64,000 nt of DNA from Hymenobacter psoromatis (GTDB lineage: Bacteria; Bacteroidota; Bacteroidia; Cytophagales; Hymenobacteraceae). The notes below the pieces were generated by a model that had not been told where the DNA came from, made no database searches, and saw nothing but the letters and a program-made list of their open reading frames with translations. Below, piece by piece: positions 1 to 64,000 of the stretch (the first letter of the stretch is position 1; each line of letters starts with the position of its first letter). The DNA lies in the NCBI GenBank assembly GCA_001596155.1, contig CP014771.1:1488001-1552000 (forward strand). Reading direction: 5' to 3'. Position numbers and translations under genes: made by a program.

Positions 1-675
1 GCGGTGTACGCGAAGTTTCCGCAGATAACATCGCTCAACTACGTGCTCAACAACAAAGGCAACGAAACCTTCCACGACCTGGAGGTGGTATGCTACCAGG
101 GCAAGCCCTACATCGAGGAAGACATGGAAGGCCTGCGCTTCCGCATCGGCCCCAAGTCGTTTTACCAAACCAACTCGGCCGGCGCCCACAACCTGTATAA
201 AGTGGCCCGCGACTTCGCCGAAATCAAGCCCACCGACCTTGTGTATGATTTGTACACGGGCGCGGGCACCATCGCCAATTTCGTGGCCCGCCAGGCCCGC
301 CGCGTAGTCGGTGTGGAGTACGTGGAGCAGGCCGTGCTCGATGCCCGCGTCAACTCCGAAATCAATGGGGTAGGGAACACCGAGTTCTTCGCCGGCGACA
401 TGAAGGACCTGCTTACCGAGGCCTTCACCAGCCACCACGGCCACCCCGACGTCATCATCACCGACCCGCCCCGCGCCGGCATGCACGAAGACGTGGTGCA
501 GCGCCTCGTGGCCCTGCGCGCCCCCCGCCTCGTCTATATCAGCTGCAACCCCGCCACCCAGGCCCGCGACCTGGAACTACTGGACGAGGTGTATAAAGTG
601 ACGCGGGTGCAGCCGGTGGATATGTTTCCGCACACGCACCACGTGGAGAATGTGGTGTTGTTGGAGTTAAGGTAG
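1..675 (+). CDS. rlmD: 23S rRNA (uracil-C5)-methyltransferase, RlmD/TrmA family, 3' part
   Basis: Open from the window edge, so only the C-terminal ~224 residues are present. The family transfers a methyl group from SAM to C5 of a uracil in 23S rRNA. Seen: the SAM-binding stretch VYDLYTGAGTIANFVAR, the DPPRAGMH motif, the catalytic-cysteine motif YISCNPATQARDL, and the family C-terminal pattern MFPHTHHVENVVLLELR. The N-terminal half (often a TRAM domain and Fe-S cysteines) lies outside, so RlmD versus a paralogous TrmA-family enzyme cannot be settled. The Rossmann and catalytic region looks intact. It is followed by a palindromic repeat (703-790). Confidence 0.88.
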   Translation, partial: AVYAKFPQITSLNYVLNNKGNETFHDLEVVCYQGKPYIEEDMEGLRFRIGPKSFYQTNSAGAHNLYKVARDFAEIKPTDLVYDLYTGAGTIANFVARQARRVVGVEYVEQAVLDARVNSEINGVGNTEFFAGDMKDLLTEAFTSHHGHPDVIITDPPRAGMHEDVVQRLVALRAPRLVYISCNPATQARDLELLDEVYKVTRVQPVDMFPHTHHVENVVLLELR

Positions 676-702
676 GATTAGCAGATTGTATATAGTATGT
701 TT

Positions 703-790
703 GAACGTCATGCTGAGCTTGTCGAAGCATCTCTACCACGCAGTTCTGATTGTTCGGTAGAAATGCTTCGACAAGCTCAGTATGACGTTC
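703..790. repeat. Palindromic intergenic repeat, GAACGTCATGCTGAGC family
   Basis: Inverted repeat: the left arm starts GAACGTCATGCTGAGCTTG, the right arm ends CAAGCTCAGTATGACGTTC, and about 20 bp of loop lies between. The same family recurs at 5855-5952 and 31615-31713. It lies between rlmD and the interrupted small gene. It could act as a bidirectional terminator, but there is no clean T-tract. Confidence 0.85.
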
Positions 791-931
791 TAAATTGTTT
801 CAATACGTATCTCAAGATGAGCAAGAATCAAGTGTTTTGGATTTGGTTATTTGCTACGCTAGTAATAGCTATCCGGCTAACCACTGCTGATGCTCACTCC
901 GGTTTGTATGCGGCAGTTGGCTTTTCATTGA

Positions 932-941
932 TATCAACAGC
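932..941. repeat. Left copy of the 10-bp target-site duplication
   Basis: TATCAACAGC lies immediately outside the left terminal repeat. The identical right copy is at 2129-2138. The word falls inside the coding frame of the interrupted small gene. Confidence 0.93.
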
Positions 942-2182: not shown

Positions 2183-2344
2183 ATGGACTACTTCAACGAC
2201 CCCGAGCTAAACGGCAAATACCTGGGCACGATTACTACCAATTTCACCCCCACCCCTACCCCCCGTAAATCAAGCAAGAAGCAGGCACAAACCAAAAGCC
2301 GGGGCAGCGCGTTACTTTTGTCACGCGCTGCCCGGACTGCGTAA
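2183..2344 (+). pseudogene. Truncated copy of the 124-aa hypothetical gene at 3167
   Basis: Positions 2183-2235 (53 bp) are identical to 3167-3219, the first 53 bases of the intact gene downstream. After ACGATTAC the two diverge completely. The copy runs on in an unrelated Thr/Pro/Lys-rich frame to a stop at 2342-2344, giving a 53-residue chimeric frame. The breakpoint is followed by a C-rich run containing CTACCCCC. The identity being limited to the 5' end suggests a partial duplication or a deleted second copy. Translation of the chimera is doubtful. Confidence 0.7.
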
Positions 2345-2590: not shown

Positions 2591-2593
2591 CGC

Positions 2594-2968: not shown

Positions 2969-3166
2969 ATGGCTACTTCCCCTACCCCCAGCAGGCTGGG
3001 CTACGAACCGCCCGGCGTTGACCTTACTATTTATTCCCGTCCCCGTACCGAAGCGGAGGAAAAGGAAATCAGCGCTTTCTTTCAAAAGCTGCGGGCCGAA
3101 AACGATAAAAACCCCGAGATAGTGGCCCTGCGCGAAAGACTGGCCCGGCGCTACCCCAAACCGTAA
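2969..3166 (+). CDS. Small soluble hypothetical protein
   Basis: 65 residues, no membrane segment, mostly predicted helix in the C-terminal half (EAEEKEISAFFQKLRAENDK). It sits 21 bp after the previous gene and its TAA directly abuts the ATG of the next (3167), so it is almost certainly co-transcribed. Not recognised. Confidence 0.55.
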   Translation: MATSPTPSRLGYEPPGVDLTIYSRPRTEAEEKEISAFFQKLRAENDKNPEIVALRERLARRYPKP

Positions 3167-3690: not shown

Positions 3691-4717
3691 AAAAGTGGTT
3701 GAAGCCCTGCGCCCGCAGCGGCACGGCCTGGCCGGCTTTCGTTATCAGGTTCACCGCGTCGTCGTGCTCGGTGAGGTGGCCGATGACGGTGATATCAGGG
3801 TGGTTTTTAATCTTGGCGTGGTCGGCGACCGGGATGGTGAAGAGCAGCTCGTAGTCCTCGCCGCCGTTGAGGGCGGCCATGATGGGGTCGAGGTTAAACT
3901 CGGCGGCGGCTTCGAGGGTAGGGTTGGCCAGCGGCAGGTATTCGCTGAACACGCGCGCGCCGGTGCCGCTGGCGGCGCACAGGTGCATCACCTCCGAGGC
4001 CAGGCCGTCGGAAATATCAATCATGGCGGTGGGGTGAATGCCCAGCTCGCGCAGCTCGTGCACGATGTCGAGACGCGCCTCGGGCTTGAGTTGGCGGTTC
4101 ACGATATACTCGTAATTATCTAGCTCGGGCTGGGTTTCGGGGTCGGCCAGGAAGGCTTGCTTTTCGCGCTCCAGCACTTGCAGGCCCAGGTACGCGCCGC
4201 CCAAGTCGCCGCTCACGCACAGAATATCGGTGGGCCGCCCGCCCGAGCGGCGCACGGCCTGGCCAGCCGCCACCTGCCCCAGCGCTGTCACGCTGATGAC
4301 CAGGCCGCCGCGGCTGCCGGTGGTGTCGCCGCCCACCAGGTCCACGCCGTAGGCTTCGCAAGCCAGGCGCATCCCGACGTACAATTCTTCCACGGCCTCC
4401 ACCGTAAAACGGGGGGGTAGGCTCAGGCCGACGATGATTTGAGTAGGGGTAGCGAACATGGCCGCCACGTCCGACACGTTCACGGCCACCGCCTTGTAGC
4501 CCAGGTGCTTGAGGGGTGAAAACGACAAGTCGAAATGCACGCCTTCGACCAGCAAATCGGTGCTGACCACGATTTCCTGCCCGGCCGGCGGGGCCAGAAT
4601 GGCCGCGTCGTCGCCAATGCCCAGGATGGTAGAAACCTGCGTGAGGGTGATGTCGCGCTGCAAGCGGCGAATGAGCCCAAACTCGCCGAGCTGGGAAAGG
4701 GGCGTTAAATCAGCCAT
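3689..4717 (-). CDS. thiL: Thiamine-monophosphate kinase
   Basis: 342 residues, the usual ThiL length. It phosphorylates thiamine monophosphate to thiamine pyrophosphate with ATP, the last step of cofactor synthesis, in the cytoplasm. Seen: GIGDDAAIL (residues 33-41), DLLVEGVHFDL (54 onward), YKAVAVNVSDVAAMFATP, DLVGGDTT, IDISDGLASE and ALNGGEDYELLFT, all hallmarks of the PurM/ThiL fold and its Mg-ATP sites. No other thi genes are nearby. The stop lies within the arm of the 3541-3690 repeat. The upstream gap carries another palindrome (4735-4849). Confidence 0.96.
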   Translation of the reverse strand: MADLTPLSQLGEFGLIRRLQRDITLTQVSTILGIGDDAAILAPPAGQEIVVSTDLLVEGVHFDLSFSPLKHLGYKAVAVNVSDVAAMFATPTQIIVGLSLPPRFTVEAVEELYVGMRLACEAYGVDLVGGDTTGSRGGLVISVTALGQVAAGQAVRRSGGRPTDILCVSGDLGGAYLGLQVLEREKQAFLADPETQPELDNYEYIVNRQLKPEARLDIVHELRELGIHPTAMIDISDGLASEVMHLCAASGTGARVFSEYLPLANPTLEAAAEFNLDPIMAALNGGEDYELLFTIPVADHAKIKNHPDITVIGHLTEHDDAVNLITKAGQAVPLRAQGFNHF

Positions 4718-5547: not shown

Positions 5548-5667
5548 GCTGAGCAGGTTGAAGTTTCGCAGAAAGGTGGTATCTTTTCGGGCAGTACCGG
5601 CCAGCCCTCGGGCTTGGCTGTGTTTCTGGTCCCTACCCCCTCTTTTTCCTTCAACCCAGCCCACGTT

Positions 5668-5952: not shown

Positions 5953-5987
5953 ATTGACTGACGTTCTTTTCTTTTTTCCTACCCCCC

Positions 5988-7085
5988 TTATTTTTCTTCC
6001 ACCGGGCCGGGGTTCAGCTCGCGCACGTCGGGGTGCTGGTAATTGACGAGGATGACCGAGAAGGGATGCGGCTCGCCCTCGCGCTTTTCGAGGCGCACGG
6101 CCCCGGCATCGCGGAGCTGGCTCAGGAGCTGGCGGCGCTCCCAGTCGGGCAGCTCGGGCAGCACATCGGTGAGACGCCGCAGGAAGGGGCTGGCCCATAT
6201 TTCGGGCGTACCCTGCTGACTGCCAAAGCGCTGCACCTGCTCCAACAAAAACTCCAGGCAGCGCCGTTCCGCGTCGCGCGTGATGCGGCGGATGGGCGCA
6301 AACGTGGCTGGCGGCTCTTGCAGCAGCTGCTCCATGAGGTTGGGGCGGGCGGCGGGGGTAGGGCGGGGCGCGGGCACCACCGGGCTGGGCGCGACCTCGG
6401 CCGGGGTGCCGCCGGTGGTGGCCGCCGCATCCTGGGCGGCCTGCCGGGCGGCGGCCGACTGCACGCCCACCATGCCTTGCTCGCGGAGGCGGCGCAGGTC
6501 CTGGCCCAGGCGCAAGCGGGCCGTGCGGTGGTCTTCGAGGGCTTGAAGGCGCTCGGCGGGCATTAATTCGCGGGCATCGATGAAGTGCTCCTGGCCCAGC
6601 ATCTGGAGCAAGTCGCCGGACACGCTTTCGCGGAAGCCCACCACTTTCACCTGCCGGGCCTGGCGGCGCAGGTGCTGGAGCACGGGAATGTAGTCGCGGT
6701 CGCCGGCCACGAGCACAAACGTGCCGATGGCGGGCCGGGTGTAGAGCACCTCCAGCGCGTCGATGCAGAGCTGCATATCGGCGGCATTCTTGTGGTCGGT
6801 GCCCAGCACGTTGCGCGTGCTCACGCCCATGAGGTAGAGCGGGCCTTGCGGGCCGGTCGGAATTTTGTCGAAGTCGGCGTAGGCGTTGAGCACCAGCGAG
6901 TCGAGCCCTTGGTCGCGCTTGAGCGAGTCGCGCAGGGCGCGCACCAGGTCGAGGGCGTAGTCGTGGGGGTCCTGGGGGTCGAGGTAGTGATTTTTGAGAA
7001 AATAATACACGTTCTCAAAATCAATAAACACCGCTGCGTAAGGCGAGGCCGGGGGCGCGGCGGCGAGGGGGGTAGGGGTCAACAT
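5988..7085 (-). CDS. NYN-domain (PIN-like) protein with C-terminal winged-helix-like domain
   Basis: 365 residues from the ATG at 7085 (a TTG at 7157 would extend it). Residues ~16-170 are a NYN domain. Acidic motifs are in order: FIDFEN (21-25), YADFDK, DHKNAADMQLCIDAL and VAGDRDYIPVL, the metal-binding residues of this nuclease fold. The domain ends in VVGFRESVSGDLLQ. A Pro/Ala-rich linker follows, then a C-terminal region (CLEFLLEQVQRFG... QLRDAGAVRLEKR...PFSVILVN) that looks like the winged-helix OST-HTH/LOTUS module often paired with NYN. Likely RNA-directed; the substrate is unknown. Confidence 0.8.
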   Translation of the reverse strand: MLTPTPLAAAPPASPYAAVFIDFENVYYFLKNHYLDPQDPHDYALDLVRALRDSLKRDQGLDSLVLNAYADFDKIPTGPQGPLYLMGVSTRNVLGTDHKNAADMQLCIDALEVLYTRPAIGTFVLVAGDRDYIPVLQHLRRQARQVKVVGFRESVSGDLLQMLGQEHFIDARELMPAERLQALEDHRTARLRLGQDLRRLREQGMVGVQSAAARQAAQDAAATTGGTPAEVAPSPVVPAPRPTPAARPNLMEQLLQEPPATFAPIRRITRDAERRCLEFLLEQVQRFGSQQGTPEIWASPFLRRLTDVLPELPDWERRQLLSQLRDAGAVRLEKREGEPHPFSVILVNYQHPDVRELNPGPVEEK

Positions 7086-7290: not shown

Positions 7291-10251
7291 ATGCGTACGT
7301 TGTTTTTCTGGCGAGCCGGCTGGCTGCTGCCCATTTTGGTGCTACTTGCTGCCCCGGCCCACGCCCAGCGCGAGGCCGACCAACTGCCCACCCAGGACCC
7401 GTTTGCCCGCCGCCCGGTGCTGGCGCGCGAGGTGCCGGGCGGGCGATATTTGTCGCACTCATTTGATGCTGAAAAAAATATTCTCACCATTCGAGCTACC
7501 GATGGCAGCACCCGTCAAGTGCGGCCGTGGGCGGATGGCGTGTTGAAAATCAGCTACTTTGCGCCGGGTCGGGTGCCGGTGGCCGACTCGTCGGTGAGTG
7601 TATTAGATAATATATTACCTCACGCAGACCGAGCAGCGGCAGCAGATGGGAAACACGTCATGCTGCTGGCCAACCCCTCATCAGTTACGGCGGGTACGGT
7701 TCGCTTACGCACCAACCACGGCACTGTTATTATCCAAAAAAACTCGCTGCAAGTCAGTTGGGAATATGGAGGTGATGTTCTGTACAGTGAGGCCAGCGCT
7801 GCCTTTCGCCGCCAGCCCCACACCTCCCAATTGCCCCCACGCTCGGACTCGCAGAGTCCGGGCTACAGCGCCGATGAGCTGGCCGGCACGGGCGTGCGGG
7901 TGCGCCTCGCGCCGGGCGAGCGGCTCTACGGCACGGGGGCCCGCGCCCTACCCCTCGACCGGCGCGGCTACCGCCTGGAGCTGTATAACCAGGCGCACTA
8001 CGGCTACCAAAACGGGGAGCAAAACCTGAACGTAGCGCTGCCCGTGGTGCTCAGCAGCCGGGGCTACCTGCTGCTTTTCGACCACTACGCGGCCAGCTAC
8101 CTCGACCTGGGCAAGAAGAACCCCGACGTGCTCGAATACGGCGCGCTGGGCCTCACCAGCCTGAGCTACTTTGTAATAACGGGCCAGAACCAGGCCGAAA
8201 TCCTGGACCGCTACACGGCGCTCACGGGGCGGCAGCCCCTACCCCCCCGCTGGGCGCTGGGCCTCATTCAGAGCCGCTTTGGCTACCGCAGCCAAGCCGA
8301 GATGCTGGCCGTGGCCCGCCGGATGCGGCGGGCCGATTTTCCGCTCGATGCGCTGGTGCTGGATTTGTACTGGTTTGGCGGCACCACCCGGCAGGGCGAT
8401 TTTCAGTGGGATAAAACCAATTTTCCCGACCCGGCCGGCATGATGCGCGAACTTAAAACGCAGGGCGTCAACACCATCCTCATTTCGGAGCCTTATGTGA
8501 TGCGTACCTCCCTGAACGACAGCCTCGTGCGCACGCAAGGGCTGGTGGGCACCACGGCGGGGGGTAGGCCGTTCACGGTGGGCTCGTTCTGGGCGGGGCC
8601 GGCGAGTATTTTGGACGTGTTTAAGCCCCAGACCCGCACCTGGCTGTGGGCGCAGTACCGCCGCCTGCACGAGCAAGGCGCGGCCGGCTGGTGGAGCGAC
8701 CTCGGCGAGCCCGAAAACCACCCGCTGGCCATGCACCACGCGCTGGGCCTCACGCCGCAAGTGCATAACGCTTACGGTATTACCTGGGCCAAAATCTTTC
8801 GGGATAATTACCAAAAAGAATACCCGAATGAGCGGCTTTTCAATCTGGCGCGCTCGGGCTGGGCCGGGATGCAGCGCAACTCGGTGTTTCCGTGGAGCGG
8901 CGACATCAGCCGCAGCTGGAGCGGCTTGCAGGCGCAGGTGCCCATCATGGTGGGCATGGGCCAAGCGGGCGTGGGCTACATGCACTCCGACGCGGGCGGC
9001 TTCGGGGCCAATGCCATTCAGGACCCCGAACTGTACACGCGCTGGCTGCAACTGGCGGCGCTCTGCCCCATCATGCGCCCGCACTCCGACCAGGTGGTGG
9101 CGCCCGAGCCCTACACCTACCCCGAACCCTACCAAAGCATCGTGCGCAAGTATGCGCATTTGCGCTATCAGCTCCTACCCTACCTCTATACCCTGGCCGC
9201 GCAGAACACGCTGACCGGCGCGCCACTGGCGCGCGCAATGGATTTTGAAGACAGTTATGAGTTAAGAATTAAGAGTGAAGACTTAGCTCAGCCGACAAAA
9301 TTCTTACCTCTTACCTCTCCACTCTTAACTGAAGACGACCAATACCTGCTCGGTCCCAACCTGTTAGTGGCGCCCATCAACCAACCCGGCCAGCGGCGGC
9401 GCAACGTGGTGTTGCCCCCTACTCCCGGCGGCTGGGTTGATTTCGTCTCGGGTCAAACGCTGCCTAGCAGCCGCACGGTGGGCCTGCCCGCGCCGCTGGG
9501 CCATATTCCGCTGCTGGTCCGCGCCGGCGCTTTCGTGCCCATGACGGCCTACCAGCGCAGCACGGCCGCCTTCCGGGCCGACACGCTGCAAGTGCGCTAT
9601 TTCCCCGATTCGGCCGTGCCGGCCTCTTTTTTCACCGTGTATGAAGATGATGGGCATTCAGCCCAAGCCTTAGCGCAAAAGCAATATGCTACTATTCAGC
9701 TTACTGGCAAAACAACAGCTAATCAAATCCTTATCACCACTACGGTAGCGGGCTCTTACCCCGGCGCACCAACCCAACGCCTGGTACGATTGCGTGTGGC
9801 GCGGGCTGCCGCTGCGCCCACGGCCGTGCTGCTCGGGGGCCAGCCGCTGGCTGCTTCGGCGTGGCAATTCGATGCGGCGCGGCACGAAATCAACCTGGAA
9901 TTTCTGGTTGAAAAGCGGGCGGTTGTTACGCTAACCGGCTTGCGCCTGCTCACTACCCCCGCCGCCCAAACCGACCCCGAAACGCTGACGCTCACTGCGC
10001 CCGACAGCCGCACCTTTTCCGGCTCGGTGGGGCTGCGCTATGAGCGCTACGTGGTGGCCGCAGCCCCTACCCCCCTGCTTATTCGCAACGTGCGGGGGCA
10101 GGTGGTGCGCGAGCTGCCTACGGTAGCCGAAGTGGGCGCGCATGCAGTGCATTGGGATGGGCTGGATGCTGCCGGCCGGCCTGTTGCGCCCAGCTTATAC
10201 GAGGTAGAACTGGGCGGGCAGCACCAGCGACTGGTGCGACTGCCGCAGTAG
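7291..10251 (+). CDS. Secreted glycoside hydrolase family 31 (alpha-glucosidase/xylosidase type)
   Basis: 986 residues from the ATG at 7291, chosen because a signal peptide starts there (RTLFFWRAGWLLPILVLLAAPAHA). The central (beta/alpha)8 barrel shows FPLDALVLDLYWFGG, the nucleophile motif GWWSDLGEPE (Asp ~470) and the acid/base motif WSGDISRSW (Asp ~538), then HSDAGGF. A proximal beta domain with VYEDDG follows. The C-terminus (IRNVRGQVVREL...LYEVEL) resembles a FlgD-like/type IX secretion tail. It would release alpha-linked sugars outside the cytoplasm. An AT-rich in-frame insert lies at 9253-9333, just before the LLGPNLLVAP strand. Substrate specificity cannot be read. Confidence 0.9.
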   Translation: MRTLFFWRAGWLLPILVLLAAPAHAQREADQLPTQDPFARRPVLAREVPGGRYLSHSFDAEKNILTIRATDGSTRQVRPWADGVLKISYFAPGRVPVADSSVSVLDNILPHADRAAAADGKHVMLLANPSSVTAGTVRLRTNHGTVIIQKNSLQVSWEYGGDVLYSEASAAFRRQPHTSQLPPRSDSQSPGYSADELAGTGVRVRLAPGERLYGTGARALPLDRRGYRLELYNQAHYGYQNGEQNLNVALPVVLSSRGYLLLFDHYAASYLDLGKKNPDVLEYGALGLTSLSYFVITGQNQAEILDRYTALTGRQPLPPRWALGLIQSRFGYRSQAEMLAVARRMRRADFPLDALVLDLYWFGGTTRQGDFQWDKTNFPDPAGMMRELKTQGVNTILISEPYVMRTSLNDSLVRTQGLVGTTAGGRPFTVGSFWAGPASILDVFKPQTRTWLWAQYRRLHEQGAAGWWSDLGEPENHPLAMHHALGLTPQVHNAYGITWAKIFRDNYQKEYPNERLFNLARSGWAGMQRNSVFPWSGDISRSWSGLQAQVPIMVGMGQAGVGYMHSDAGGFGANAIQDPELYTRWLQLAALCPIMRPHSDQVVAPEPYTYPEPYQSIVRKYAHLRYQLLPYLYTLAAQNTLTGAPLARAMDFEDSYELRIKSEDLAQPTKFLPLTSPLLTEDDQYLLGPNLLVAPINQPGQRRRNVVLPPTPGGWVDFVSGQTLPSSRTVGLPAPLGHIPLLVRAGAFVPMTAYQRSTAAFRADTLQVRYFPDSAVPASFFTVYEDDGHSAQALAQKQYATIQLTGKTTANQILITTTVAGSYPGAPTQRLVRLRVARAAAAPTAVLLGGQPLAASAWQFDAARHEINLEFLVEKRAVVTLTGLRLLTTPAAQTDPETLTLTAPDSRTFSGSVGLRYERYVVAAAPTPLLIRNVRGQVVRELPTVAEVGAHAVHWDGLDAAGRPVAPSLYEVELGGQHQRLVRLPQ
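9253..9333. repeat. AT-rich imperfect inverted repeat inside the GH31 gene
   Basis: About 80 bp of low GC. The left part, AGTTAAGAATTAAGAGTGAA, is imperfectly complementary to the right part ending CTCCACTCTTAACTGAAG. It is in frame and encodes a Leu/Thr/Ser-rich loop between DFEDS and EDDQYLLGP. Its style matches the AT-rich ATTAGTCATTAGTCACTC repeats in gaps elsewhere (34456-34488, 34773-34827). Confidence 0.6.
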
Positions 10252-11258: not shown

Positions 11259-11386
11259 AACACTTGCGGCTAATTGAAGGGGGGTAGGCGCTCGCCGGGG
11301 CGGGCTGCTTAACTTAGTGGTTATTATACGCGGTACACCACGCCAAGGTAGGGTGAAATGGTTTACGAACCAAAAAAATTCCTCAC

Positions 11387-12289: not shown

Positions 12290-12309
12290 GATTCCGGCGG
12301 CCCTACCCC

Positions 12310-50463: not shown

Positions 50464-50478
50464 CCGCCCTACCCCCGC

Positions 50479-51687: not shown

Positions 51688-51796
51688 TTTATAACCCTAA
51701 AAGTAACCTACGACCGCCGAACGAGGTTTTAGCGGGGGGCGTTACCTTCGTCCTACCCCCTCTCCTCCCCCTCTCACCCGCAGCTTCCTGGCCCCC

Positions 51797-53008: not shown

Positions 53009-53240
53009 CTCTACCCCCTTGAAAATAGTGGGTGAGGCACCGGCCCGCTTGCAACGTCGGCGCGGTTTTTGGGCTCTTCTGGTGAGTAGTGGTGCGGCCA
53101 GCCACCGTGGTTCAGGCAGTAAGTAGTCTGGGGCCGGACGGGCCGGGTAGCAATCCACCCACGTGCTCACCTTCGTATTATATAACGTTGATTACGCGCC
53201 TGGTGCGGGTTTTCAACGTTGCCTATCCCCTATATTCTCC

Positions 53241-53688: not shown

Positions 53689-53826
53689 TATGCCCTACCC
53701 CCGGCGGCGAGCTAAGCGCAGGCTTATATTTCCTTGGCTCGTAACCAACATTCGGCTAGCACCGTTAAGATGCGAGAAGCCGAACATCTGGTTCTGGCGA
53801 CCCTTAATCTAATTTCCCCCTTTCCG

Positions 53827-54714
53827 ATGAGCACCAACGATGCAAACAACCCGATGAACTCTGGCACCGGCGCCGGTGCCAATTATGGCACCAGCAACAC
53901 CGGCACTGGCCTCGGCAACAGCGGCAATCTGAGCAGCGAAAGCACTAGCTACGCAGGCACTGACGAGTACAGCAAGACTGCTGCTTTGGACGGCACTACC
54001 CCCACCAACGCGGCTGATACTGGTTCGCGCCCCGGTGATGACTACAGCGCTACTGCCAAGGGTGCCGCAGTAGCCGGCACTGCCGGTGCCGCCGTAGGCC
54101 GTGGCGTTGATGCTGTGCAGAACACCACTGACCGCGCTGCTCACGCTGTGAAGGACGCTTTCACGGGCCAGAACGATAGCTACGACTACCAGGCAGGCAG
54201 CACGACCAGCGGCATTTTCCGCGACCGCGACAGCGCCGAGAAGGCCTACCAGTCGCTACACGAGCGTGGCTACGGCAAAGACGATGTGAACCTGATGATG
54301 TCGGATGACACGCGCAAAAATCAGTTTAACGACCAGTACGATGCGCAACGCACTGAGCTGGGCGACAAGGCTATGGAAGGCGCGGGCGTAGGCTCGGCCA
54401 TTGGTGGCACGGCCGGCGCTATTATTGGAGCCATTGCCGCCATCGGTACTTCGGTAGCGCTGCCGGGCCTCGGTCTTATCATCGCCGGCCCGCTGGCCGC
54501 TGCGCTGGCTGGCGCTGGTGCCGGTGGACTCACGGGTGGCCTGGTAGGCGCGCTGGTAGGCTCGGGTATTCCCGAAGAGCACGCTGCTGAATATGAGCAA
54601 GGCATCAAGAATGGCGGTATCGTGATGGGTGTAAAGCCTCGCAATGCTGAAGATGCCAAGTATTTCGAAGAGCAGTTCAAGACCAATAATGCCGATAAGG
54701 TGTACCGCTATTAA
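53827..54714 (+). CDS. General-stress-type protein with YflT-like domain and Gly/Ala membrane segment
   Basis: 295 residues from the ATG at 53827. A Gly/Asn/Ser/Thr-rich N-terminus (~120 residues, unstructured), then a YflT-like (PF11181-type) segment, TTSGIFRDRDSAEKAYQSLH, YGKDDVNLMMSDDTRKNQF. Next comes a long glycine-rich hydrophobic domain (GVGSAIGGTAGAIIGAIAAI, LIIAGPLAAALAGAGAGGLT) like those in stress-related membrane-associated proteins, and a tail with IPEEHAAEYEQGIKNGGIVM. Probably stress-induced; the role is not defined. Confidence 0.78.
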   Translation: MSTNDANNPMNSGTGAGANYGTSNTGTGLGNSGNLSSESTSYAGTDEYSKTAALDGTTPTNAADTGSRPGDDYSATAKGAAVAGTAGAAVGRGVDAVQNTTDRAAHAVKDAFTGQNDSYDYQAGSTTSGIFRDRDSAEKAYQSLHERGYGKDDVNLMMSDDTRKNQFNDQYDAQRTELGDKAMEGAGVGSAIGGTAGAIIGAIAAIGTSVALPGLGLIIAGPLAAALAGAGAGGLTGGLVGALVGSGIPEEHAAEYEQGIKNGGIVMGVKPRNAEDAKYFEEQFKTNNADKVYRY

Positions 54715-55319: not shown

Positions 55320-58300
55320 ATGTGGATAGTAAGACTGGCGCTGGCGCGGCCCTACACCTTCGTGGTGATGGCGCTGCTGATTCTCATTGGCGGAGTGCTG
55401 ACGATTCAGCGCATGGCAGTGGATATTTTCCCCGATATCCCGATTCCGGTGGTGGGCATTGTGTGGACGTATTCGGGCATCGCGCCTGAGGAGATGAACC
55501 AGCGCGTGGTGGTGCCCGTGGAGCGCGCCATTACCACGACCGTGAGCAACGTGGAACACTTGGAAAGCCAGAGCCTGAAGGGCATCGGGCTGATAAAGGT
55601 GTTTTTGCAGCCCGGCACCAACCCCGATGGGGGGGTAGCGCAGCTCACGGCCATTTGCCAGACGCTGTTGCGGGTGCTGCCGCCGGGCATTACACCACCG
55701 CTCATTATCCGCTACTCGGCTTCTAACGTGCCGATTGCGCAGACCTCGCTCAGCTCCGAAACTCTGGGCGAATCGGACCTCTATGACGCGGCCAATGCCT
55801 TCATCCGGCCGGGGCTGGCGGTGGTGCAGGGCGCCTCGGTGCTGCTACCCAACGGCGGCAAGCCCAAGCAGATAATGGTGGACCTCGACCCGCAGAAGCT
55901 GGCCGGCAAGGGCTTGAGCGCCGACGACGTGGTGAACACCCTCACGAGCCAGAATATCATTATTCCGGCCGGCTCGGCCAAGATTGGTAACCGCGAATAC
56001 GACGTGAAACTTAACTCCAGCCCGGAGGCGGTGGCTACGCTCAACGACCTGCCTATCAAGACGGTAAATGGCGTGACGACCTACATCCGCGACGTGGCGT
56101 TTGTGCACGAGGGCTCGGCGGTCCAGCAGAATATCGTGCGCCAGAATGGACGGCGCACGGCCATTATTCCCATTCTGAAAAGCGGCGCGGCCTCGACGCT
56201 GGACGTTATTGACAAGATTAAGAAAGCGCTACCGAATATCCAGGCCAATGCCCCGGCCGGCCTGAATATCAAGCTGTTGTTTGACCAGTCGTTTTTCGTG
56301 CGGGCCTCCATTAAGGGCGTAATTGTGGAGGCTAGCATTGCGGCGGCGCTCACGGCGCTCATGATTTTGCTGTTTCTGGGCTCGTGGCGCTCCACGCTCA
56401 TTATCGCCATCAGCATTCCGCTCTCGATTCTGGTCAGCATTATTGTGATGAATATTCTGGGCCAGACCCTGAATATTATGACGTTGGGTGGCCTCTCGCT
56501 GGCGGTGGGCATTCTGGTGGATGACGCGACGGTGGAAATCGAGAATATTCACCGCAACATGGGCCAGAAAAAGCTGCTCAAGCGCAGCATTCTGGATGGA
56601 GCGCAGCAGATTGCTACCCCCGCGCTGGTGGCTACGCTGTCCATTTGCATTGTGTTCGTGCCGGTGTTCTTTTTAGGGGGGGTAGCGTCGGCCATTTTCG
56701 CGCCGCTGGCTACGGCCGTGATTTTTGCCATGCTGGCCTCGTACATTCTGAGCCGGACGCTGGTGCCCACGATGGTGATGTACCTGCTGCGCAACGAGTT
56801 GCCCATTTACCACGCGCAGGAAGAGGAGCAAGTGCCGAGTGCGCACTTCCGCAACGGCCGCGAGGTGACGCAGGGTGAGCGCGACCTGGCCCGCCTGCAC
56901 CGCGAGCAGTTTGAGCGCGAGCATCCCAGCGGCACGGCCGAGGAAGAGGCCGAGCGGGGCATTACCGACGAGGAGCGCCAAGCCGGCAAAGCCATTACTA
57001 AGACGTGGGTGTGGCGCCTGCACACGGGTTTTGAGCATCATTTTGAGAAATTCCGGCACGGCTACAAGGGCGCGCTCGACTGGGCGCTCGGCAACCGCGG
57101 GTTGGTGGTGACGGCCTTCGTGGTGCTGTTCGTGGGTTCGCTGGGGCTGTTTCCGCTGATTGGCCAAAACTTCTTTCCGACCGTGGATGCCGGGCAGCTG
57201 CGCCTGCACGTGCGGGTGCCCACCGGCACGCGGATAGAGGAAACGGAGCTACGCTTCCGGCAGGTAGAGGGCGTGATTCGGCAGGTGATTCCGGCCAAGG
57301 AGCTGGATTTGGTGCTGGCTAACATTGGCCTGCCGGTAGTATCTATCAACCTGCTGCTGAGCGACAACCCGACCATTGGGGCCGGCGATGGCGAGATATT
57401 GGTGAGCATGAAGGAAAAGCACGGCCCCACGGCCGGCTACATCCAGGAAATCCGCCGCAAGATTCACCAGCAGTATCCCGACCTGATTGTCTTTTTTCAG
57501 CCGGCCGATATCGTGAACCAGACGCTGAACTTTGGCCTGCCCGCGCCCATCGACATTCAGGTGACGGGCCGCAATACCAAGGCCAACCAGGAAATCGCGG
57601 CGCAGCTGAAGAAGCGGATAAACAACGTGCCGGGGGTAGTGGATGCCTTTATATACCAGGCTTTTGACCAGCCGCAGCTGCGCCTGGACATTGACCGGGT
57701 GCGCGCCCAGCAGGCCGGCCTGGCCCAGCGCGACATTGCCAACAACCTACTCGTGAACCTGAGCAGCAGCACCCAAACCAACCCCAACCAGTGGCTGAAT
57801 CCGCAAAATGGCGTGAGCTACACCGTGGCCGTGCAGACGCCGCCCAGCAAGCTCGCTAACCTGAATGAGGTCGGCAACATCACGGTGACGGGCCCCGACC
57901 AGCCTACCCCCCAGCTGCTGACCAGCTTCGCCCAGATACGCCGCACCCAGACCTCGGCCGTGGCCTCGGACTACAACATTCAGCGCACCGTGGACCTCTA
58001 CGCCAGCGTGAGCGGCCGCGACCTGGGCGGCGTGAGCAAGGATATTCGCCGCATTATTGCCGACGCCGAGAAGCACCTGCCCAAGGGCACGACCATCGTG
58101 ATGCGCGGGCAAGTGGAGTCGATGCGCACGTCGTTTATCGGCCTTGGGCTTGGTCTGGCGGGCGCTATCGTGCTGGTTTACTTGCTGATGGCGGTGAATT
58201 TTCAGAGCTGGCTCGACCCGCTCATCATCATCACGGCTTTGCCGGGCGCGCTAGCGGGCATTTTGTGGATGCTGTTTGTGACCCAGACCACGCTGAGCGT

Positions 58301-58898: not shown

Positions 58899-60107
58899 AT
58901 GTCAACTGACTCAACTGCACCTACTTCCTCTGGCAAGGGCCGCTTCTGGCTGGTTATGCTGGTTTTGCTGATTGTCTTCGGAATTCTGTTTCTGGTAGGC
59001 TTCCTACCCCGCCTCAAGCACAACAAGGCCCGCGATGAAGAATCGCAGACCCAGGCCAGCGCCAAGCCCGTGGTGACGGTGCAGCGTGCCAAGCTGGCCC
59101 CCGACACCACCACCATAACCCTGCCCGCTGACCTGCGCTCGAACCACGAAACGTTCGCCTTTGCCCGCGTCAATGGCTTCGTGCAGAGCTGGACCAGCGA
59201 CATCGGCCAAAAGGTGCGCAAGGGCCAGGTGCTGGCCACCATCGCTACCCCCGAGCTGGACCAGCAGATTGCCCAGGCCCAGGCCAACCTGGCGCTGGCC
59301 CGCACCTCGTTTGGCCGCCTCACCAGCGTGACACTGCCGGGCGCCGTGTCGCAGCAGGAAGTGGATGCCGGCCGGGCGCAGTTTGCCGCCCAAGGTGCCG
59401 CGGTGAAGCAGCTGCAAGCCCAACGCGCTTTCCGGCAAGTAGTTGCCCCCTTCAATGGAGTTGTAACGCAGCGTAATGTGGACGTGGGCACGCTCGTAAC
59501 GGGCGGCAACGCCACGGGCACGCAGCTCTTCAAAATCGAGCAAACCGACACGCTGCGCGCCTTTGTGGACGTGCCCCAAAACTTCGTGCCCGGCATCCGG
59601 CGCGGGCTGCGGGCCGACGTGCTGGTGCCCGAATTTCCGAACCAGCCCTTCGAAGGCCGGGTGGCCCGCGACGCCGAAGCCCTCGACGCCCAGACGCGTA
59701 CACTGCGCACCGAAGTAGTGCTGCCCAACCGCGGCACAAAGCGCCTGTTGCGCCCCGGCGTGTACGGTCAGGTGCGCTTCCGCCTGCCGCAAAGCGCGCC
59801 GAGCGTGCTCATCTCGGCCAATGCGCTGGTGCCGGGCATCGACCCCAAAGTAGCCGAGGTGCGCGACGGTAAAATTCATTTCCTACCCCTGACTTTGGGC
59901 CGCGACTTCGGCTCGACCATCGAAGTAACCAAGGGCCTGAAGGGCGGCGAGAAGGTAGTTATAAATCCTGCCGAAAACCTGACCGAAGGCCTGGCCGTGG
60001 ATACCAAAGCCGCTCCTAAACCGGCCAAGCCGGCCGGCCCGCCGCCTGCTAAGCCCCGCGCCAACGACCCTGATGCGCCGCGCGTGTCGTCGCCGGTGGC
60101 GAAGTAA
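58899..60107 (+). CDS. RND efflux periplasmic adaptor (membrane fusion protein)
   Basis: 402 residues. N-terminal anchor helix (WLVMLVLLIVFGILFLVGFL), lipoyl/barrel-sandwich halves (VQSWTSDIGQKVRKGQVLAT...VVAPFNGVVTQRNVDVGTLV), a short alpha hairpin (LDQQIAQAQANLALARTSFG) and beta-barrel domains with VDVPQNFVPGIRRGLRADV. The C-terminal tail is Lys/Pro-rich. Anchored by a helix rather than a lipid. It links the permease and the outer-membrane factor. Follows the permease by 216 bp holding a palindrome. Confidence 0.93.
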   Translation: MSTDSTAPTSSGKGRFWLVMLVLLIVFGILFLVGFLPRLKHNKARDEESQTQASAKPVVTVQRAKLAPDTTTITLPADLRSNHETFAFARVNGFVQSWTSDIGQKVRKGQVLATIATPELDQQIAQAQANLALARTSFGRLTSVTLPGAVSQQEVDAGRAQFAAQGAAVKQLQAQRAFRQVVAPFNGVVTQRNVDVGTLVTGGNATGTQLFKIEQTDTLRAFVDVPQNFVPGIRRGLRADVLVPEFPNQPFEGRVARDAEALDAQTRTLRTEVVLPNRGTKRLLRPGVYGQVRFRLPQSAPSVLISANALVPGIDPKVAEVRDGKIHFLPLTLGRDFGSTIEVTKGLKGGEKVVINPAENLTEGLAVDTKAAPKPAKPAGPPPAKPRANDPDAPRVSSPVAK

Positions 60108-60310: not shown

Positions 60311-61852
60311 ATGCGTATTTCCCTTGTCCTGCTCACCCTAGCGCTGGGCGGCTGTGCCGCGAGCCACTACACCTACGACCCGCCGGCCGTGGCTGTACCC
60401 ACGGCGTTTAAGAACACGGCGGCCGTTGACTCGCTGGGCCGGGGTAGGGCCGAAGTACCTGCGCCCACCGTGGCCGACACCGCCTCGAAGGCGCGCCTGG
60501 CCCAGCAGCCGAGCCTGCCCGCCTGGTGGGCTGTGTTTAATGACACGACCCTGACGCGGCTGGAGGGCCAGGCGGGTAGCCTCAACTTCACGACGCGGGC
60601 GGCGCTGGCCCGCCTCGACCAGGCACGGGCACAGTTGCGCGTGGCCGAGGCCCAGCGCTCGCCGGTAATTGCACTGGCACCCCAGGTGTATAATTCGCGG
60701 CTTTCGGCGCTGCGACCGGTGCAGTCGGCAATTATTCCGGCGGTGGCGGTGCCGCAGCAGCAGTACTATGTGCCGCTCAATGTGAGCTACGAAGTGGACC
60801 TGTGGGGCCGGCTGCGGCGCGGCGCGCAGGCGGCCCGCGCCAACGAGCAGGCCAGCGAGGCCGACGAGCAGGCCGTGCGCCTGAGCGTTTCGGCCGATGC
60901 GGCTAACTCGTATTTCAGCCTGCGCGGCCTTGATGCCGAGCTGTTGGTGCTCGACAGCGCCCGCCAGGCGCGGCGCTACAACGTGCAGCTGACCGCCGCC
61001 CGCTTCAAGGCCGGCGTGGACAATGAAATCGGCCTGCGCCGCGCTGAAACCGAGCTAGCCAACGTGGAGGCCAGCGCCATTGAGCTGCGCCGCCAGCGCG
61101 CCGGGCTGGTGGCCTCGCTGGCTACGCTCACCGGGCGGCCAGCCAGCAGCTTTGTGCTGCCCTCGCTGGCGCCCGACTCGGTGAGCTACCAGAGCGCGCT
61201 GCCGACTACGGGCATCAACCCTACCCCCCCCTCGGCGGCCGTACCCGCGCTGCTGCCGCCACTGCCCGCTATTCCAGCCACGCTGCCGGCCAGCCTGCTC
61301 ACGCGGCGGCCCGACCTGCGCCGCCAGGAGCGCCTGCTGGCCGCCGCCGACCTGCACGCCGACCAGGCCCGCCTCAACCGCCTCCCTACCCTCCTGCTCA
61401 ACGGCTTTATCGGCCCGCAGAGCAGCCATGTCGGTGACGTGGCCAAGGTGGGCAACGGCCTCACCTACTACGTGGGCGGCGGGTTTAATATTCCGCTTTT
61501 TGACGGCGGACGCTTGCGCGGGGCCGAGCAGCTGGCCCGCGCCCAGGGCCGCGAGCAGGTAGCCACCTACCAGGGCACGGCGCTCACAGCCTACCAGGAA
61601 GTAGAAACCGCCCTGGCCGACGTGCGCGCCGGCGAGGCCCAGCTAGCGGCCCAGCAGCGGGCGCTGCGCGCCGCCCGCCTGGCCGGCCGCCTCACTCTGG
61701 AGCGCTACAAGCGCGGCCTCTCCGACTACTTTGCCGTAGTGGATGCCGACCGCCAGACCCTCGATGCCGCCCGCCTAGTGGTGCAAACCCAGGCTACGCA
61801 GCTGCGCGCGGCCGTGGCGCTGGTGCGGGCGCTGGGCGGCGGCTGGCAGTAG
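60311..61852 (+). CDS. Outer-membrane efflux lipoprotein, TolC/NodT family
   Basis: 513 residues. Lipoprotein signal (ISLVLLTLALGGC, lipobox LGGC). Two OEP repeats of long coiled-coil helices: LEGQAGSLNFTTRAALARLD, YYVPLNVSYEVDLWGRLRRG (the family VSYELDLWGR motif), and LYYVGGGFNIPLFDGGRLRG-type second motif (YYVGGGFNIPLFDGGRLRGA), with LLTRRPDLRRQERLLAAADL between. Forms the trimeric outer-membrane tunnel. A Pro-rich linker (PPSAAVPALLPPLPAIPATL) precedes RRPDLRR. Last gene of the efflux set, followed by a terminator. Confidence 0.93.
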   Translation: MRISLVLLTLALGGCAASHYTYDPPAVAVPTAFKNTAAVDSLGRGRAEVPAPTVADTASKARLAQQPSLPAWWAVFNDTTLTRLEGQAGSLNFTTRAALARLDQARAQLRVAEAQRSPVIALAPQVYNSRLSALRPVQSAIIPAVAVPQQQYYVPLNVSYEVDLWGRLRRGAQAARANEQASEADEQAVRLSVSADAANSYFSLRGLDAELLVLDSARQARRYNVQLTAARFKAGVDNEIGLRRAETELANVEASAIELRRQRAGLVASLATLTGRPASSFVLPSLAPDSVSYQSALPTTGINPTPPSAAVPALLPPLPAIPATLPASLLTRRPDLRRQERLLAAADLHADQARLNRLPTLLLNGFIGPQSSHVGDVAKVGNGLTYYVGGGFNIPLFDGGRLRGAEQLARAQGREQVATYQGTALTAYQEVETALADVRAGEAQLAAQQRALRAARLAGRLTLERYKRGLSDYFAVVDADRQTLDAARLVVQTQATQLRAAVALVRALGGGWQ

Positions 61853-61890: not shown

Positions 61891-61927
61891 GCAGGGTGCG
61901 GAGCCAGCCCCGCACCCTGCTTTTTTT
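61891..61927 (+). terminator. Intrinsic terminator of the efflux operon
   Basis: GCAGGGTGCGG / CCCGCACCCTGC with a 7-nt loop and a TTTTTTT tract. Confidence 0.9.
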
Positions 61928-62015
61928 CGCAGTCCACTTCGTGAAGAGTAGTTGGCAACTATTAGGGGGATAGTGGGTTACTTTGTCACTGTTTCACCCA
62001 TTTTTCTGCTCACTT

Positions 62016-62384
62016 ATGTCACCTACTACTCGCAATACCGTTGCCTGGATTTTACAAGCCCTGCTGGCTTTTGCCTTCATAGCCTCCGGCATCAGGAAGT
62101 TTCTGCACTTGTCTGATACCGTGACCATGTTTGCCGGCCTCGGCGTGCCGGGCTGGTTTGCTTACCTCATTGCCAGCAGTGAGGTGCTGGGCGGCATCGG
62201 CTTGCTGTTGCTGCGCTTCGTGCGCCCGGCCGCTATGGGTCTGATTATCATTATGCTGGGCGCTGTTTTCATGCATGCCACCAAGATTCCAGGTGGGTTG
62301 GCCAAGGGCGTGCCGGCCATCGTGCTGCTAGTGCTTTTGTTTGTAGTGCTGGCACTGCGCCGACAAACTTCGAGAATAGTATAA
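62016..62384 (+). CDS. DoxX-like membrane protein
   Basis: 122 residues from the ATG at 62016, four membrane helices. Motifs WILQALLAFAFIASGIRKFL, FAGLGVPGWFAYLIASSEVL and GGIGLLLLRFVRPAAMGLII fit the DoxX/DoxX-like family. These proteins are of variable function, often stress- or redox-linked. A near -7 box (TACTTTG) is at ~61979. Single-gene transcript by its own gap and the preceding terminator. Confidence 0.8.
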   Translation: MSPTTRNTVAWILQALLAFAFIASGIRKFLHLSDTVTMFAGLGVPGWFAYLIASSEVLGGIGLLLLRFVRPAAMGLIIIMLGAVFMHATKIPGGLAKGVPAIVLLVLLFVVLALRRQTSRIV

Positions 62385-62475
62385 TTTTAATATATTCCAA
62401 GTAAACGCCGCTAATTAACCCGCACACGCTGAAGCGTATGCTACAGTTCGCCAGGCCAGCCGCCCGGCGTTTTTT

Positions 62476-64000
62476 ATGCAAATCCTATATTCTTACCTGC
62501 GTCGCTACTGGGGCCTGCTGGCGCTGGCGCTGGTGCTGGCGGCCGTCAACCAGGTTTTCTCGCTGCTTGACCCCTACATTTTCCGCAAGCTGGTGGACCA
62601 GTTTGCGACGCGCTACCCCGATATGACCGGGATGCGGCGCGTGCCGTTCGCGCCGTTTTTCCGGGAGGCTATTCCGCTGCTGGCCATGATGTTGGGGGTA
62701 GCGATGGTGTCGCGCATTGCCAAGAATTTCCAGGATTACTACGTCAACGTCATCACCCAGCGGCTGGGGGCCACCATGTATTCCGACGGCCTGCGGCACT
62801 CGCTCGATTTGCCCTACCAGGTGTTTGAAGACCAGCGCTCGGGCGAGACGCTGGGCAAGCTCCAGAAGGTGCGCCTCGACGTGGAGAAGTTGATTCAAAG
62901 CTTTGTGAACGTGCTGTTTACGGCGCTGGTAGGCATTATTTTCGTGATGTGGTACGCTATCAGCGTGTACTGGCCCATTGCGCTGGGCTACTTCCTCACC
63001 ATTCCGCTGCTGGGTATTCTGAGCTTTGCGCTGAGCAAGCGCATCAAGGTGATTCAGAAGACCATCGTGGCCGAAACGACCTCGCTGGCCGGCTCTACTA
63101 CCGAGAGCCTGCGCAACATTGAGCTAATCAAGAGCCTGGGCCTGGCCCAGCAGGAAACCGACCGCCTGAACGGCATCACCAATAAAATCCTGAAGCTGGA
63201 GCTACGCAAGGTGCGCTACCTGCGCTCGCTGAGTTTCGTGCAGGGCACGTTCGTGAACTTGCTGCGCAACATTATCATCTTGCTGCTCTTGTACTTGCGG
63301 GTGCAGAACCACATCAGCCTGGGCGAGTTTTTCTCGTTCTTTATCTACTCGTTTTCCATCTTCGGGCCGTTGCAGGAATTTGGCACCATCATCGGCAACT
63401 ACCGCGAGTCGGAGGCGTCGCTGGCTAATTTTCAGAAAATACTCGACACTCCGCGCGACGTGAAGCCGGCCCATCCGCAACTGGTGGAGCATATTGAAAC
63501 GCTGGCTTTTGATGACGTAACGTTCAAGCACCTCACGGCCCCGCTGCCGGCGCTGGCGGGCATTTCGTTCCGCGCGAAGCTGGGCGAAACCATCGCGTTC
63601 GTCGGCCCCAGCGGCTCGGGCAAAACCACGCTCGTGAAGCTGCTGGTGGGCCTCTACCCCCCGCTGTCGGGCGAGATTCTGTACAACGGCATTTCGAGCA
63701 AAAATGTGGACCTGGACCAGCTGCGCGAGCAAATCGGCTTCGTAACCCAGGACACCCAGCTTTTTGCCGGCACCATCCGCGAAAACCTGCGCTTCGTCGC
63801 GCCCCAGGCCACCGACGAAGAGTGCCTGCGCGCCCTGCACCAAGCGGCCGCCGACACCCTGCTGGCCCGCGCCCCCAAGGGCCTCGACACCGTGCTGGGC
63901 GAAGGCGGCGTGAAGGTGAGCGGCGGCGAAAAGCAGCGCCTCAGCATCGCCCGCGCCCTGCTACGCCACCCTACCCTCCTGGTTTTCGACGAAGCTACCT
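62476..64000 (+). CDS. ABC transporter, fused permease-ATPase (exporter), 5' part
   Basis: The ATG at 62476 opens a frame that runs off the window (508 codons seen). Membrane domain with six helices (QILYSYLRRYWGLLALALVL, YYVNVITQRLGATMYSDGLR, QSFVNVLFTALVGIIFVMWY) then the nucleotide-binding domain: Walker A FVGPSGSGKTTLVKLL, Q-loop IGFVTQDTQLF, signature KVSGGEKQRLSIARALLR, Walker B TLLVFDEAT at the edge. An MsbA/MDR-type exporter for lipid or drug; the substrate is not readable. Confidence 0.93.
   Translation, partial: MQILYSYLRRYWGLLALALVLAAVNQVFSLLDPYIFRKLVDQFATRYPDMTGMRRVPFAPFFREAIPLLAMMLGVAMVSRIAKNFQDYYVNVITQRLGATMYSDGLRHSLDLPYQVFEDQRSGETLGKLQKVRLDVEKLIQSFVNVLFTALVGIIFVMWYAISVYWPIALGYFLTIPLLGILSFALSKRIKVIQKTIVAETTSLAGSTTESLRNIELIKSLGLAQQETDRLNGITNKILKLELRKVRYLRSLSFVQGTFVNLLRNIIILLLLYLRVQNHISLGEFFSFFIYSFSIFGPLQEFGTIIGNYRESEASLANFQKILDTPRDVKPAHPQLVEHIETLAFDDVTFKHLTAPLPALAGISFRAKLGETIAFVGPSGSGKTTLVKLLVGLYPPLSGEILYNGISSKNVDLDQLREQIGFVTQDTQLFAGTIRENLRFVAPQATDEECLRALHQAAADTLLARAPKGLDTVLGEGGVKVSGGEKQRLSIARALLRHPTLLVFDEAT

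Follow-up and report, generated by a model that had tools for sequence, protein, structure and literature searches.

The octamer CTACCCCC is a maintained DNA-level signal with a bipartite recognition pattern in Hymenobacter psoromatis. It was noticed in a stretch of 64,000 bases (GCA_001596155.1, CP014771.1, positions 1,488,001-1,552,000), here called the window. The window holds 43 copies on the plus strand and 23 on the minus strand, the latter read as GGGGGTAG, where arithmetic from the base counts predicts ~4 copies in all. The original prediction, made by eye, had put the numbers at ~40 forward and 25-30 reverse copies against ~4 expected, in good agreement with the exact count, and a real copy lies no more than 5 bases from each of its 19 example positions.

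The genome that contains the window (G000; 5,451,254 bases in three contigs) carries 4,727 copies, 2,272 on one strand and 2,455 on the other (~0.87 per kb, or 867 per Mb), and 170 copies (88 + 82) of the mirror word CCCCCATC. Word statistics were taken from 100 evenly spaced 20-kb stretches of the main contig (L001-L100) plus the window, 2.064 Mb altogether. In this sample, CTACCCCC ranks first among all 8-mers under a 4th-order Markov model, with 1,867 copies seen and 314 expected, an expectation inflated by CTACCCCC itself. The top 10-mer is CCCTACCCCC (895 seen, 33 expected). Coding regions were called with a home-made gene finder, which labels 80% of the sample as coding and surely misses some genes; by these calls, the density is 0.900 per kb in genes and 0.893 per kb elsewhere. 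The copies divide into 971 sense, 520 antisense, 364 intergenic, and 12 at boundaries, bearing out the predicted occurrence on both strands and in coding and non-coding DNA. The frames used follow what the code tolerates, namely PTP (370), LPP (265), ATP (95), and TTP (63) on the sense strand, which is the proline-rich coding that had been described, and one antisense frame is nearly empty (23 copies). The counts are neither near the Markov expectation nor explained by codon use alone.

Copies are spaced less closely than at random. Neighbours lie less than 60 bp apart in 58 cases, compared with ~95 under random placement (the random placements allowed overlaps, so that the true deficit is somewhat smaller), and less than 120 bp apart in 149 cases, compared with ~188. 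There is also a strand skew. When the chromosome is split into two arcs (~0.78-3.43 Mb and the rest), the strand counts are 573:429 and 359:506, with a log-likelihood ratio of 22.9 against a maximum of 11.0 among 200 random strand draws. The origin was set at 3.40 Mb, inferred from the word's own skew (the arc end) and a nearby parS-like site; such sites were found at 3,339,816 (one mismatch) and 2,981,172 (two mismatches). With this origin, 1,071 of 1,867 copies (57%) have GGGGGTAG on the inferred leading strand, and the share over six distance bins from origin to terminus is 0.566, 0.545, 0.585, 0.578, 0.586, and 0.582. Word density is similar in all six bins and does not rise towards the inferred terminus. 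The skew relative to the replication origin that the original prediction had proposed to look for is real, but weak and flat. Contig C1 (~200 kb) has at least 66 word places, and the word seems scarcer there than on the chromosome.

The word is the core of a longer motif, in which CCCTACCCCC is followed by a C/A element at a distance of some two helical turns. C runs of 4, 5, 6, 7, and 8 occur 940, 900, 560, 255, and 123 times after CTA, compared with 121, 68, 26, 4, and 1 times after TTA. The enrichment of CTAC(4-8) is graded, and C is favoured at -1 and -2 before CTA. The second element reads approximately SGCCRAA, its C falling at +19 and its A at +21 from the first C, and for C runs of 5 to 8 it stands at a constant distance from CTA. 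In 240 copies outside called genes (compared from -8 to +26), A is found at +21 in 53%, so the second element is not a codon effect. Below, T+n denotes the offset from the T of CTA. Over 1,865 sites of G000, the frequency of C at T+18 is 0.53 (background 0.31) and that of A at T+20 is 0.43 (background 0.19). A at T+20 is likewise present in 0.51 of 376 sites in the sister genome G034, and in 0.50 of the 30 sites from two distant relatives, H. sediminis and H. latericoloratus (p=2.4e-4). In controls from the word-poor relative BRD67, A at T+20 is not raised (CTACC, 17% of 1,562; CTACCCC, 25% of 89, p=0.18; CCTAG, 25% of 146, p=0.08). For GCTAGC, it is weakly raised (0.27 of 86, p=0.044). Two stretches were compared for H. 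polaris, which uses the word CCCTAGGG. A at T+20 occurs on 12 of 28 sides of CCCTAGGG at the first locus and on 13 of 40 when a fresh 12-kb stretch is pooled with it (p=0.019); for CCTAGG, the pooled figure is 34 of 102 (p=1.4e-4), and T+19 is raised even more. The T+19 offset is also raised for CTACC in BRD67.

The copies of the word in the window are as follows; the one at 28508..28515 is followed by GCCGA at the position of the second element.

2256..2263, plus strand, exact CTACCCCC match
2982..2989, plus strand, exact CTACCCCC match
4413..4420, minus strand, exact CTACCCCC match
5633..5640, plus strand, exact CTACCCCC match
5979..5986, plus strand, exact CTACCCCC match
6354..6361, minus strand, exact CTACCCCC match
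7068..7075, minus strand, exact CTACCCCC match
8239..8246, plus strand, exact CTACCCCC match
8560..8567, minus strand, exact CTACCCCC match
9953..9960, plus strand, exact CTACCCCC match
10067..10074, plus strand, exact CTACCCCC match
11061..11068, minus strand, exact CTACCCCC match
11280..11287, minus strand, exact CTACCCCC match
12080..12087, minus strand, exact CTACCCCC match
12303..12310, plus strand, exact CTACCCCC match
12657..12664, plus strand, exact CTACCCCC match
13775..13782, plus strand, exact CTACCCCC match
15288..15295, minus strand, exact CTACCCCC match
15422..15429, minus strand, exact CTACCCCC match
17234..17241, plus strand, exact CTACCCCC match
18473..18480, minus strand, exact CTACCCCC match
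18579..18586, minus strand, exact CTACCCCC match
18791..18798, plus strand, exact CTACCCCC match
22666..22673, plus strand, exact CTACCCCC match
24962..24969, minus strand, exact CTACCCCC match
25329..25336, minus strand, exact CTACCCCC match
25373..25380, plus strand, exact CTACCCCC match
26374..26381, plus strand, exact CTACCCCC match
27437..27444, plus strand, exact CTACCCCC match
27480..27487, plus strand, exact CTACCCCC match
28508..28515, plus strand, exact CTACCCCC match
29129..29136, plus strand, exact CTACCCCC match
29678..29685, plus strand, exact CTACCCCC match
30490..30497, plus strand, exact CTACCCCC match
31827..31834, plus strand, exact CTACCCCC match
32671..32678, minus strand, exact CTACCCCC match
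33515..33522, plus strand, exact CTACCCCC match
34295..34302, minus strand, exact CTACCCCC match
35279..35286, plus strand, exact CTACCCCC match
38541..38548, plus strand, exact CTACCCCC match
39592..39599, minus strand, exact CTACCCCC match
40436..40443, plus strand, exact CTACCCCC match
41248..41255, plus strand, exact CTACCCCC match
42271..42278, minus strand, exact CTACCCCC match
43168..43175, plus strand, exact CTACCCCC match
43404..43411, minus strand, exact CTACCCCC match
47804..47811, plus strand, exact CTACCCCC match
48566..48573, plus strand, exact CTACCCCC match
49133..49140, plus strand, exact CTACCCCC match
49286..49293, minus strand, exact CTACCCCC match
50040..50047, plus strand, exact CTACCCCC match
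50469..50476, plus strand, exact CTACCCCC match
51753..51760, plus strand, exact CTACCCCC match
52614..52621, plus strand, exact CTACCCCC match
53011..53018, plus strand, exact CTACCCCC match
53695..53702, plus strand, exact CTACCCCC match
53996..54003, plus strand, exact CTACCCCC match
55631..55638, minus strand, exact CTACCCCC match
56614..56621, plus strand, exact CTACCCCC match
56678..56685, minus strand, exact CTACCCCC match
57632..57639, minus strand, exact CTACCCCC match
57904..57911, plus strand, exact CTACCCCC match
59245..59252, plus strand, exact CTACCCCC match
61221..61228, plus strand, exact CTACCCCC match
62694..62701, minus strand, exact CTACCCCC match
63654..63661, plus strand, exact CTACCCCC match

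The word is abundant only in scattered lineages of a single genus, and some relatives use other words. More than 1,000 copies of CTACCCCC are found in 10 of 73 genomes of the genus: G034 (5,005), G000 (4,727), G014 (4,668), G028 (3,754), G072 (2,622), G055 (2,603), G053 (1,624), G026 (1,213), G059 (1,152), and G060 (1,106). The remaining 63 have 69 to 378 copies, all 46 genomes of the order outside the genus have fewer than 300, and no genome outside the genus exceeds 300 in a phylum sample of 296. H. latericoloratus has 2,466 copies. On a DNA tree of FtsK with 58 rows, at least four gains or losses are needed for the seven word-rich rows, which group as G000 with G034 (SH-aLRT 89), G014 with G028 (98), H. 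latericoloratus with H. sediminis (100), and H. profundi. Word-poor species, some using other words, sit between these groups. We note that this is the tree of one gene and may differ from the species tree.

Dialect words were sought in 20-kb loci around ftsK of relatives. H. polaris has CCCTAGGG 28 times on both strands, that is, at 14 places in 21.7 kb. CCTAGG forms are used by H. setariae and one BT559 record, GCTAGCCC and CCCTAGC by another BT559 record and CA2-7, and ACCTAGGT/ACCTAGCT by H. cavernae. Among 20 Pontibacter loci, six carry the genome word AGGTATAG (L146, L148, L151, L154, L155, and L175) and ten carry AAGTATAA (L152, L157, L160-L164, and L166-L168), at up to ~1.7 and ~2.3 copies per kb, respectively; no second element near +20 exceeds the threshold used for either word. 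The loci of many relatives have no dialect word. The dialect words from Hymenobacter and Pontibacter contain CTA or TTA on one strand, and CCCTAGGG and ACCTAGGT are palindromic whereas CTACCCCC is not. With A at T+20 raised for some of the dialects and not for others, their common origin, including a link between CCCTAGGG and CTACCCCC, is only suggestive. Genome-wide, CCCTAGG (counted on both strands, so that palindromic places count twice) exceeds 1,000 in 6 of 101 congeners: G071 (9,854), G033 (5,828), G021 (5,800), G050 (1,947), G061 (1,717), and G058 (1,220). Further candidate words at the top of the list from the 20-kb loci are AAACGGTAG in Adhaeribacter terrigena (L158) and GGGGCCCC in H. 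nivis (L117). Among the matches listed in the literature search, subscription papers and preprints excluded, none described CTACCCCC or any iterated word from Hymenobacter or Pontibacter.

Comparison with two relatives shows how copies are kept and gained. Between G000 and G034 (87.8% identity over 98 kb aligned), 66 of 91 ungapped words are kept (5 more are gapped), compared with 44.9% of all 8-mers and with 98 of 179 for ten control octamers pooled, one of which overlaps the word and two small ones of which score higher (6/8 and 6/7). Between G000 and BRD67 (80.5% identity over 102.6 kb aligned), none of 82 ungapped words is kept (13 more are gapped), compared with 24.9% of all 8-mers unchanged and 35 of 198 pooled control octamers; ~400 kb of BRD67 show no equivalent word. 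Amino-acid identity between G000 and G034 is 204/215 at word codons, 620/738 at flanking codons, and 25,081/27,892 elsewhere; for G000 and BRD67, the corresponding values are 136/190, 490/648, and 21,157/25,255. Words therefore sit at sites under weaker constraint and, once there, are preserved better than the sequence around them. At G000 word sites, BRD67 differs at a mean of ~2.8 of 8 bases by all substitution types (G-to-C, G-to-A, C-to-T, and others). The words were thus gained through changes of several bases each, and many different precursors converged on a single word. C-to-T deamination as the sole cause is rejected: among mismatches at the five C positions that follow CTA, T leads in BRD67 at the first, but G is the most frequent letter at the other four. 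Position-for-position switching of dialects is not the rule either, as in the aligned part of ftsK and its surroundings the dialect sites of relatives almost always lie away from G000 words. The in-place exception is BT559 (L108), which has CTAGCCCC where G000 has CTACCCCC, and there is one overlapping case in H. setariae. At 11 of 18 aligned CCTAGG sites of H. setariae, G000 reads TGGG for TAGG (CCTGGG in 6). One word in ftsK is common to G000, G034, G014, and G028, and H. polaris has a one-base variant there. Overall, the DNA-level role that the original prediction had preferred to codon use is supported by the equal density outside called genes, the extended motif in intergenic copies, the above-background conservation in the sister genome, and the background counts in most congeners.

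Candidate reader proteins were compared between genomes with more than 1,000 copies of CTACCCCC or CCCTAGG (16 word-rich genomes) and the other congeners. The contrasts use the 74 congeners counted for both words (G000-G072 and G281); 27 of the 101 (G409-G416 and G454-G472) were not counted for CTACCCCC, and genomes using other dialects are part of the comparison group, which makes the contrasts weaker. N6/N4 methyltransferases (PF01555) are present in 7 of 16 word-rich genomes and 37 of 58 others, and C5 methyltransferases (PF00145) in 6 of 16 and 19 of 58; word-rich G021, G050, G059, and G061 (99-100% complete) and the incomplete G028 have neither. DUF5689 was examined because a Riemerella competence protein belongs to that family. 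Its short forms (E under 1e-16, a cut set after seeing the matches) occur in 15 of 101 congeners, and in 8 of 16 word-rich genomes versus 4 of 58 others (Fisher p=2.7e-4, uncorrected for relatedness). We do not propose DUF5689 as the reader, since both loci that were read (L260 and L261) are of a nutrient type, with SusC/SusD, DUF5689, and a calcineurin-like phosphoesterase as named from protein reading, and G000, G034, G014, G028, and G071 are without the short form. Full-length PilB/PilT-type ATPases are encoded in G009, G011, and G415; G009 and G011 are rich in neither word, and G415 is not rich in CCCTAGG.

The most likely mechanism, which we favour tentatively and at less than even confidence, is that CTACCCCC is a self-DNA tag of the uptake-sequence kind, recognized by a receptor that works without type IV pili. 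A sequence-reading DNA-handling machine would recognize the CTACCCCC core, with lineages of Hymenobacteraceae using different words, or dialects. The receptor, in a natural-transformation pathway (DNA uptake or recombination) without type IV pili, would prefer word-bearing fragments, and near-words would repeatedly be replaced by words through recombination with conspecific DNA, up to ~1 copy per kb. We infer that a single reader may exist and work on DNA entering the cell. The build-up of the word may likewise reflect molecular drive and not an advantage that every copy gives to the cell. The deficit of copies less than 60 bp apart looks as if one copy per fragment suffices. The tag is also favoured by the graded, bipartite motif, whose second element recurs in G034 and in H. 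sediminis with H. latericoloratus but not in the BRD67 controls, by the variety of precursors that turned into the word, and by ComEC, which 100 of 101 congeners have. The DNA uptake sequences (DUS) of Neisseriaceae and the uptake signal sequences (USS) of Pasteurellaceae are alike in having thousands of copies, ~1 per kb, on both strands and inside and outside genes, with a stop codon in one frame, a motif longer than its core, and different words in related species, as in the relatives here. An excerpt of PMC3630211 gives ~1,900 copies of the Neisseria DUS per 2.2-2.3 Mb, close to the ~0.87 per kb of CTACCCCC. Within the Bacteroidota, Riemerella is described in an excerpt of PMC8459023 as competent with parts unlike known machinery and without known pilus parts. 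That the Hymenobacteraceae have type IV pilus-independent self-DNA recognition with fast-switching dialects and one bipartite receptor (a TA core and an element two helical turns away) is possible, though we consider it doubtful.

Several observations weigh against the self-DNA tag. The weak leading-strand excess is unexpected for an uptake word and is the main fact that uptake leaves unexplained. An excess of inverted pairs, as Neisseria has at terminators, was not found here: +- and -+ neighbours less than 60 bp apart number 8 and 19, compared with 23.2 and 22.6 at random. The PilB/PilT/T2S ATPase (PF00437) is over the cut-off in 3 of 81 congeners and in none of the 16 word-rich genomes, G000 included (G026 has a match below the cut-off), so the known type of DUS receptor is absent. 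ComEC is present in 100 of 101 congeners, the sole miss being the 82%-complete G028, and equally so in word-poor species. The word is patchy within one genus of a different phylum, and some of its dialects are palindromic. The second element also has gaps: A at +21 is below the threshold used for 4-C runs, A at T+20 is absent from the 12 sites of H. profundi and found in 1 of 12 for CCCTAGGG in the fresh H. polaris stretch, and the second element is absent at T+20 from the dialects of H. setariae and H. cavernae. We know of no competent Hymenobacter, and there was none among the matches listed in the literature search.

Other readings explain part of the same evidence. A Chi-like hot-spot, at which GGGGGTAG would make a helicase-nuclease of the AddAB/RecBCD type stop degrading and start recombining, with dialects following changes of the reading subunit, is unlikely but would fit the strong over-representation, the variation between taxa, the seemingly word-poor contig C1, and the excess of the G-rich form on the inferred leading strand in all six bins (54.5-58.6%). 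The palindromic dialects CCCTAGGG and ACCTAGGT and the very fast turnover inside one genus are unsuited to a polar stop signal, and the bias is weak; Chi of E. coli has a stronger strand bias and a density several-fold lower than that of CTACCCCC. A crude motif scan of the genes called in 38% of the genome, which is not a proper test, gave no AddAB/RecB candidate. We also give a low probability to a chromosome-organising or nucleoid protein that would bind about once per kb, with sites selected for folding, loading, or segregation. The conserved sites, the motif spanning about two helical turns, the shortage of pairs less than 120 bp apart, and the similar density in the six bins are consistent with such a protein, but relatives such as BRD67 manage without the word, and thousands of sites gained on a short branch would need strong selection on each. 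Less probable again is a process like that proposed by Elhai for the highly iterated palindrome HIP1 (GCGATCGC) and the alternate HIPs of cyanobacteria, in which a methyltransferase would mark the word and biased mismatch repair would keep it. The density class is the same (500-2,500 per Mb for HIP1 in an excerpt of PMC4390886), sporadic replacement by alternate words is shared, and some Hymenobacter dialects are palindromic octamers. However, CTACCCCC is not palindromic, its C run is graded, its second element is distant, and PF01555 and PF00145 do not track the word-rich genomes, other methyltransferase classes being outside this comparison. Uptake sequences and HIP1 are the known systems that combine such a density with switching of words. 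Because the motif here is graded, extended, and non-palindromic, and because these two families do not track it, we favour uptake sequences over HIP1. Among the roles in the original prediction (hot-spot, uptake word, or site for a nucleoid or modification protein), a general DNA-level role stands, and a site for an N6/N4 or C5 methyltransferase is not favoured.

Two explanations are very improbable. FtsK-orienting polar sequences (KOPS) read GGGNAGGG in E. coli, and GGGGGTAGGG contains GGGTAGGG, which fits this pattern and is found in about half of the copies (895 CCCTACCCCC beside 1,867 CTACCCCC); the polarity along the inferred leading strand is also as expected of KOPS or of terminus-directed AIMS. 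We reject both by the flat profile, in which neither bias nor density rises towards the inferred terminus and more than 40% of copies are in the 'wrong' orientation, and by the FtsK gamma domain, which does not covary with the word in the pairs compared. Its stretch QRKLKLGYNRSGRLMDQL is identical in word-rich G000 and G034 and word-poor BRD67 and G020, and the gamma stretch is also identical in word-rich H. sediminis and in H. metallilatus (251 copies); G014 and G028 differ slightly from their neighbours. The second, in which the word would simply follow from codon use, amino-acid use, or mutation bias, fits the tolerance of proline-rich codings for the word and the higher sense than antisense count. 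We reject a codon or composition artefact by the intergenic density, which equals that within genes, unless most such stretches are missed genes. Congeners of like GC content lack the word, and the substitutions that separate it from BRD67 include G-to-C transversions as well as all other types, contrary to a mutation bias.

Other features were noted along the way. Rfam (gathering) and tRNA scans of the window gave no matches. Nineteen window proteins compared with Pfam are mostly familiar enzymes, transporters, and receptors, and of nine compared with PADLOC, only an NYN protein and an SbcC-like protein have matches. The window encodes an SbcD-like nuclease (25213-26475) paired with a 1,245-residue SbcC/RAD50-like ATPase (27601-31338), which also matches SMC-like defence models. 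A second FtsK-like ATPase lies in a 1,625-residue open frame at G000:C3:929517-930554, with similar long-frame matches in eight other congeners (29-36% identity to the FtsK query). Directly 3' of ftsK (L101:1735-1807) is a long REP-like inverted repeat between GTGTAGGG and CCCTACAC. Interspersed repeats unrelated to the word have the cores CAATCGGACC, GTCATTGCGA, ACTCTTAACT, and AGAACGTCAT, with 81-136 copies in 2.06 Mb.

Words iterated by the thousand are known from few groups of organisms, and the function of HIP1 is still open. Since some close relatives have CTACCCCC only at about background level and others use different words, its gain, maintenance, and dialect switching can be followed on short branches within one much-sequenced genus, and the reader can be searched for by gene content. 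If CTACCCCC is an uptake word, it would mean sequence-specific DNA uptake without type IV pili and may offer a route to transforming these bacteria. If true, this would be, to our knowledge, the first uptake-signal system in the Bacteroidota, and it would serve as a natural experiment in the origin and switching of such words.

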